From Phycisphaera sp. (GTDB taxonomy: Bacteria; Planctomycetota; Phycisphaerae; Phycisphaerales; SM1A02), in NCBI GenBank assembly GCA_016124975.1, contig WGMP01000054.1, positions 1-40,834 on the forward strand: a DNA stretch of 40,834 bases, read 5' to 3'. Below, in pieces: positions 37,687 to 40,834 of the stretch. The position numbers and the translations under genes were made by a program. The notes beneath the pieces were generated by a model that saw nothing but the letters and a program-made list of their open reading frames with translations, did not search any database and had not been told where the DNA came from. Each line of letters starts with the position of its first letter. The first letter of the stretch is position 1.

Positions 37687-40644
<2,958 letters not shown>

Positions 40645-40704
40645 GCGGTCGCCGCTGCGGCGGCTTCCTTTGGCGTGAATGATGCGCGTCGGGGTCGACA
40701 AACA

Positions 40705-40806
40705 AGGGGTGCCCGCAGGTTTCAACCTGCGGAACGACAACCGCCGGAGTCGAAGGCTGACACAATCCGTTCCGCATGCTGAAGCATGCGGGCACCCCTG
40801 ATTTTT
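40705..40806 (+). repeat. Cruciform-like inverted repeat acting as probable terminator
   Basis: Outer arms AGGGGTGCCCGCA (40705-40717) and TGCGGGCACCCCT (40787-40799) pair over 13 bp. Inner arms pair over 9 bp: TGCGGAACG (40728-40736) with CGTTCCGCA (40768-40776). Between them each side has its own small palindrome: GGTT-TC-AACC at left and TGCT-GA-AGCA at right. GATTTTTG follows the right arm. It therefore reads as a four-way junction plus U-tract, 60 nt after the gcvP stop. Confidence 0.85.
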
Positions 40807-40834
40807 GTGGCGCACGATTCAGGTTGTCGGCGTC

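Follow-up and report, generated by a model that had tools for sequence, protein, structure and literature searches.

The sequence following gcvP in this Phycisphaera sp. genome raises the question of what kind of element its elaborate palindrome represents. The window, that is, the whole 40,834-nt stretch of DNA analyzed here, is an entire contig (G000:C53) and ends at 40834, 28 nt past the reported feature; the downstream side is therefore out of view. The outer arms at 40705–40717 (AGGGGTGCCCGCA) and 40787–40799 are perfect complements and form a 13-bp outer stem. Inside it lie two 10-nt mini-hairpins, GGTTTCAACC at 40718–40727 and TGCTGAAGCA at 40777–40786, and two perfectly complementary inner arms (40728–40736 and 40768–40776) whose 9-bp stem closes a 31-nt central loop at 40737–40767. 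All these parts are contiguous and leave no gaps. A preliminary description of the locus, which proposed a four-way junction, had given this anatomy exactly, from the outer and inner stems and the mini-hairpins to a loop of about 31 nt.

The same bases allow an alternative reading, in which two 9-bp hairpins (40713–40732 and 40772–40791) stand within an outer stem of 7 bp. The CCGCA and TGCGG blocks are able to pair according to either reading. Two REPs are then recognizable. REP 1, on the forward strand at 40707–40732, consists of a foot GGGTGC (40707–40712) and the 9-bp hairpin CCGCAGGTT-TC-AACCTGCGG (40713–40732). REP 2 is inverted and occupies 40772–40797 on the reverse strand. Its foot GGGTGC is the complement of 40792–40797, and its 9-bp hairpin at 40772–40791 reads CCGCATGCT-TC-AGCATGCGG on the reverse strand, with the loop GA on the forward strand; this hairpin is the most frequent of the family (75 of 231). 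The two are separated by a spacer of 39 nt (40733–40771, forward strand), whose ends are able to pair. A linker towards the next array unit (40798–40834, forward strand) is cut by the contig end. RNA folding of 40690–40825 yielded −65.4 kcal/mol (z = −4.9, with none of 200 shuffles as good), and the minimum-energy RNA fold of the window copy is a single long hairpin, not a four-way junction. With DNA parameters and the 2-nt loops opened, the junction (−25.0 kcal/mol) and the two-hairpin form (−24.7 kcal/mol) are nearly equal. We consider, with a probability of about 0.8, that the gcvP feature is a head-to-head REP pair of the REPIN/BIME type, belonging to a high-copy family that is arrayed at the 3′ ends of genes and presumably mobilized by a RAYT.

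Copy number, arrays, and position at gene ends

With a 131-base query, BLAST returned 161 matches in the own genome, self-inverse matches included, many of them in tandem at about 137 bp. A half-element pattern tolerating up to three mismatches found 193 matches, against none in a reversed control. Both results bear out the earlier view of a multicopy palindromic element. The profile search of 39 own-genome regions and the window identified 109 copies, 73 of which are near full length, and the covariance model gave at least 149 matches, opposite-strand duplicates included, among the best 150 of 3,800 candidates. A unique copy without compensatory changes in relatives, which the preliminary description had regarded as contrary to its proposal, was looked for and not obtained.

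The tandem period is 135–138 bp in many copies and longer in others (e.g., 181 bp), and within a cluster the copies mostly share one orientation. In 59 own-genome regions and the window (60 sequences), the count of footed hairpins is 231, distributed over 61 arrays; it includes a few unrelated hairpins passed by the scan. At least three REPs are present in 45 of the 61 arrays. Of 83 head-to-head pairs, with the feet outside, 76 have a spacer of 39 nt; the spacers of tail-to-tail pairs are variable (50 nt in 37 of 72), and 15 neighboring REPs point in the same direction. Arrays show orientation patterns such as ><><, with a GC palindrome beside or between the REPs. As in REPs, the unit is a 26-bp palindrome in high copy, and an overlap exceeding 40 nt with a called ORF is seen in 5 of the 61 clusters. 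As in REPINs, inverted doublets prevail, with 83 head-to-head pairs and a window copy that folds as a long hairpin; as in BIMEs, REPs alternate at regular spacing in a mosaic with another motif. The repeats succeed one another directly, without gene cassettes, and an integron attC reading was set aside.

A contig end is no more than 100 bp away from 25 of the first 40 clusters (39 regions and the window). REP arrays thus help to explain the break points of this draft assembly. One REP copy (locus L032, about positions 106–180, on G000:C25) is broken by a stretch resembling what we take to be Illumina adapter sequence; this insert is probably an assembly artefact at the hairpin.

Array flanks coincide with gene 3′ ends in 78 of 90 cases, compared with 61 of 136 in other intergenic regions of the same stretches (Fisher P = 7 × 10^−11), the gene calls coming from a simple GC3 script and not from annotation. 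Where both flanks were called by this script, 21 of 29 arrays lie between convergent genes, as do 11 of 68 control intergenic regions (Fisher P = 2 × 10^−7). This strong placement and the very stable hairpins would suit a transcription terminator or an mRNA 3′-end stabilizer of gcvP and other genes, but such a role is unlikely as the main identity of the repeat. The T-tract that had been reported after the outer arm does follow the window copy (TTTTT at 40802–40806); it is not a feature of the family, in which TTTTT follows 2 of 72 copies and TTTT 22 of 72. The succession of a GC hairpin and a T-tract that characterizes intrinsic terminators is accordingly not seen in the family. Two terminator-like hits were found within 40600–40834. 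They overlap at 40648–40664, and both fall before the repeat, in a separate palindrome between it and the gcvP stop, so that the earlier statement that the structure goes beyond a simple terminator is fair. By eye, several relatives carry other terminator-like hairpins at this place and no repeat. A known RNA family was also rejected: Rfam gave no match in three array loci, and its two matches in window positions 40500–40834 are both far below the gathering score. Termination or stabilization could be a secondary function of the REPs.

The separate palindrome is of interest in its own right. It is GC-rich, occupies 40645–40664 on the forward strand directly after the gcvP stop codon (TAG, 40642–40644), 42 nt before REP 1, and is terminator-like with the tail TTCCTTT. 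Its sequence, GCGGTCGCSGCTGCGGCSGC, is present in 94 exact copies genome-wide and in none in the reversed control. Of the 94, 37 have a listed REP doublet within 200 bp, and they belong to 27 of 72 clusters; about 1.2 are expected if placement is uniform, a model that disregards the preference of both families for intergenic DNA. Between many copies and the first REP, the same leader sequence can be seen by eye. The other 57 copies are found elsewhere, some in short tandem runs. Three copies are spaced at 50 bp on contig C29, and likewise on C48. The GCGGTCGCSGCTGCGGCSGC palindrome is a second dispersed family that often leads REP arrays.

Covariation in 72 aligned copies

The two readings of the repeat were compared in an alignment of 72 copies, with 36 partial copies of the 109 left unaligned and L032:90–207 dropped for its adapter-like insert. 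Under the two-hairpin structure, 92.5% of the cells are paired and the covariation score exceeds those of all 500 shuffles. The ten pairs unique to this reading are paired in 93.9% of cells and have a covariation of 0.326, above all shuffles (0.137 shuffled). Conversely, the ten pairs found in the junction only are paired in 79.4% of cells and reach a covariation of 0.081, compared with 0.118 shuffled, all 500 shuffles being at least equal. These cells are not independent events, as the copies within one array are related. The helix formed by the spacer ends is paired in 96.5%, and the foot columns GTGCC are invariant or nearly so. The stems CCGCATGC, CCGTGGAC, CAGCAGAC, CCGCAGGT, CCTTGGAC, and CCGGGGAC appear repeatedly, each together with its complement, in differing combinations: the two halves vary as units. 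The covariation of the hairpin in each half, together with the conserved GTGCC foot, identifies each half as a REP and the whole feature as a head-to-head REP pair.

Selection on structure, as postulated in the preliminary description, is borne out by many compensatory changes among the 72 copies, and its remark that the lateral hairpins are unlike in sequence and alike in form holds for every pair counted. Its four-way junction did not stand as the conserved form, the low covariation of the junction-only pairs having ruled it out as the conserved object. It is quite improbable that a true four-way junction or cruciform, for instance a protein-binding site, has been selected as a whole. In the window copy its energy approximately equals that of the two-hairpin form and every junction pair is perfect, but across the alignment the two-hairpin form has the lower energy in 58 of the 72 copies and the junction in the other 14. 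The conserved object is not the four-way junction, which is one fold among several that a REP pair can adopt. A bias toward G–T at non-Watson–Crick stem positions on the foot-bearing strand was left unused, as the scan included many unrelated hairpins and its main case was one inherited stem.

Neighboring stems, relatives, and RAYT genes

In the assembled sequence, neighboring REPs do not share their stem. Identical 8-bp stems were found in none of 78 head-to-head pairs (17.0 expected under random pairing) and in none of 69 tail-to-tail pairs (14.6 expected); with one pair per region (49 regions), none was identical versus 10.6 expected. Left and right positions draw on partly different stem sets. 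The commonest stem common to both sets, present 23 times on the left and 26 times on the right, never meets itself in 76 pairs (P = 9 × 10^−6), and with one pair per region (48 regions) the median P value is 7 × 10^−4 and the largest 0.01. Four same-genus genomes provided 14 pairs, some representing the same place fetched twice, none with a shared stem; three further same-genus genomes were searched and yielded no pair. Partners with a single differing stem position reach or exceed the expected number, at 11 of 78 head-to-head pairs (8.3 expected) and 13 of 69 tail-to-tail pairs (7.8 expected), so that identity alone is missing. With such one-mismatch partners present, a real loss of perfect repeats fits less well, and an assembly effect fits too. 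Identical pairs may be hidden at the contig ends near which the 25 clusters lie. The absence of identical-stem neighbors is striking and may be partly technical: both a real loss of identical pairs and an assembly breaking at them fit the data. In the portion of the REP survey available to us, loss of identical pairs is proposed for REP dimers generally, and the preference for heterodimers is said to have "no obvious explanation" (PMC3733652).

A MITE belonging to a classical DDE transposon, whose terminal inverted repeats would be the outer arms, could account for the inverted arms and the high copy number. This reading is extremely improbable: in each of the 78 pairs the two ends have different stems, which matched terminal repeats would not, and one copy has a RAYT gene next to it.

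The own genome encodes three RAYT-like genes, at C15:38529–39071, C14:13634–14104, and C30:70249–70575. The C15 protein scores 89.9 bits against NCBIfam NF047646 (REP_Tyr_transpos; cut-off 80). Its match to TnpAREP (structure 4er8) is weak (E = 0.0037); the alignment includes the NHVH (HUH) and YIHLNP (Tyr) regions. On one side only, its gene has a partial and a full copy of the family next to it, the full one being the best other match of the window copy in the genome (92%). DUF1501 and PSCyt/PSD domains are encoded beside it, in keeping with a planctomycetal genus. A separate REP set, of the GGGTGCCACCACTTC type, flanks the C14 gene on both sides (six matches, four of them around the gene, versus one in the control). 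There are thus two RAYTs and two REP sets with a common foot. The RAYT-like gene on C30 (L060) and one in another genome (L092, G003) are more distant, and each lies between long inverted repeats in which GGCACGTGCC is abundant, an arrangement resembling the TIR-associated type. In a further genome, a RAYT gene (L079, G091:C1:281587–285015) lies inside a regular tandem series with a 55-bp period, made up of CGGTGCC-footed hairpins that all point the same way.

Outside the own genome, the covariance model, run with strict filters and scoring the best 36 candidates per genome, found matches in 7 of 15 same-genus genomes and in none of 85 others. A scan of named genomes, which may omit records near the window's own genome, gave a single match, in the MAG Planctomycetaceae bacterium 49613_E25. 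The same-genus genomes carry doublets with other stems. Among the seven family-bearing genomes, the C15 RAYT has no match in G001 and G008 and weak ones in G003, G012, and G014, G001 being 97% complete and the others less so. At four RAYT loci from other family-bearing genomes (L064, L066, L092, and L143; two in G004, one each in G003 and G006), the family profile found no match, so that the direct link between RAYT and REPs comes from one locus in one genome.

Occupancy of individual sites differs between species, the level at which presence and absence of the REP pair were seen. A gcvP match exists in 12 of the 15 same-genus genomes, and the family profile found nothing in the 154–440 nt inspected after gcvP at 11 of the 12 loci; in G008, a related doublet with other stems follows about 150 nt after the gcvP stop. 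At a second site, C50:63632, the profile found nothing in any of the nine same-genus loci with both flanks aligned. Some gaps at that site hold other hairpins, of the GGGTGCCCAGTG type in G004. This genome harbors a further hairpin family, GGGTGCCCAGTG..CACTGGGTCGC (L095, L062, and L180), with REP doublets in the same intergenic regions or alone.

Spread of the paired-hairpin family by a transposase-like enzyme is most likely, by analogy with known REP systems. The unit of the family is two inverted REPs, each with a GTGCC foot and an 8–9-bp hairpin, around a 39-nt spacer. By analogy with TnpA(REP), the C15 RAYT or a relative would bind foot and hairpin of single-stranded DNA and nick the foot-bearing strand, and it would then move or copy the head-to-head pair; tandem duplication would subsequently build the arrays. 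Under a model in which the foot acts as guide, the GTGC foot predicts that cleavage occurs at a dinucleotide that is not CT. According to the available part of a biochemical study, TnpA(REP) recognizes single-stranded DNA by its foot and hairpin and cuts it close by, the E. coli enzyme at CT; for Marinomonas, a change in the foot altered the cleavage site, and such attempts failed in two other systems (PMC8266576).

Feet near planctomycetal RAYTs and known REP families

We then ranked all 5-mer feet of hairpins lying no more than 400 bp from the gene at 52 RAYT loci; these come from the own genome and from relatives as distant as the same order, with several loci contributed by one genome. The leading 5-mers are GTGCC (22 loci), GGGTG (20), and GGTGC (17), and GTGCC is first in this ranking and also in a smaller one covering 31 loci. 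Either GGTGC or GGTGG occurs in 25 of the 52 loci, on both sides of the gene in 15, and was not found in 27. Farther from the RAYT genes (47 kb, for 42 kb in the near set), the corresponding counts are 4 and 2 loci. As for tetranucleotide feet, GTGC is present at 25 loci and GTGG at 20, either of them at 36 of 52, CGTC at 8, and GTAG at none.

In the 72 copies, the foot of the present family is GTGCC, with little or no variation, and not that of the GTAG or CGTC super-families. No description of GTGC-footed REPs was found in the literature text searched, a search that covered text and not figures (e.g., Figures 1 and 9 of PMC3733652); the letters gggtgcc do occur in PMC2817692 and PMC3686654. 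A published automatic REP search, as its accessible text describes it, required a GTAG or GTGG foot, complemented by hand inspection (PMC6006769), so that GTGC feet were invisible to the automatic step. E. coli TnpA(REP) tolerates no change of its GTAG foot and other enzymes tolerate some, as reported in the available part of PMC8266576. A REP pair of a REPIN/BIME-like family is a kind already known; the GTG[C/G] foot makes this family a novel variety. We propose tentatively, as a possibility that we hold to be less than even, that Planctomycetota harbor REPs with a third super-family of tags, GGGTG[C/G]C, served by RAYTs of its own. In the family described here, neighbors would then have to differ by at least one stem pair, the enzyme or the host enforcing heterodimers.

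The family otherwise shares many features with described systems. E. coli BIMEs consist of alternating inverted REPs forming arrays between genes; the arrays found here alternate likewise and differ in foot and stem.

As far as the accessible part of their description goes, GTAG-tagged REPs similarly carry, at one end of a short hairpin, a conserved foot that remains unpaired, show complementary stem changes, occur in clusters, and frequently form inverted dimers, theirs mostly 20–100 bp apart; the conservation of the head-to-head spacer and the variability of the tail-to-tail one are a rule of thumb there (PMC3733652). The same part reports REPs in Planctomycetes also. The foot differs, being GGGTGCC (GTGC) here and GTAG or CGTC there. 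In addition, none of our 147 neighboring pairs has identical stems, whereas heterodimers are preferred in most of those families and homodimers occur in several (PMC3733652). The REPINs of Pseudomonas fluorescens, in the part of the report available, likewise are inverted REP doublets with a spacer, able to form a long hairpin or clover, with compensatory changes, clusters by RAYT genes, and ordered tandem clusters (PMC3116915). They are mostly single, in contrast to our 45 of 61 arrays with at least three REPs, and their REP letters are unlike ours. Finally, the C15 protein has the attributes given for TnpA(REP)/RAYT families in the available parts of PMC6006769 and PMC8266576, namely an HUH/tyrosine protein with NHVH and YIHLNP motifs, an NCBIfam equivalog match, and REPs beside the gene.

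Little is understood of how REPs spread, and GTAG is the foot used by the enzymes investigated. A GTGC-footed family with an adjoining RAYT offers a natural test of whether the foot guides the cleavage site, and the lack of any identical-stem neighbor in 147 pairs one of why heterodimers are preferred. If the third tag super-family is real, its GTGC foot would imply a different cleavage dinucleotide, as the foot can act as a guide in at least one studied enzyme.
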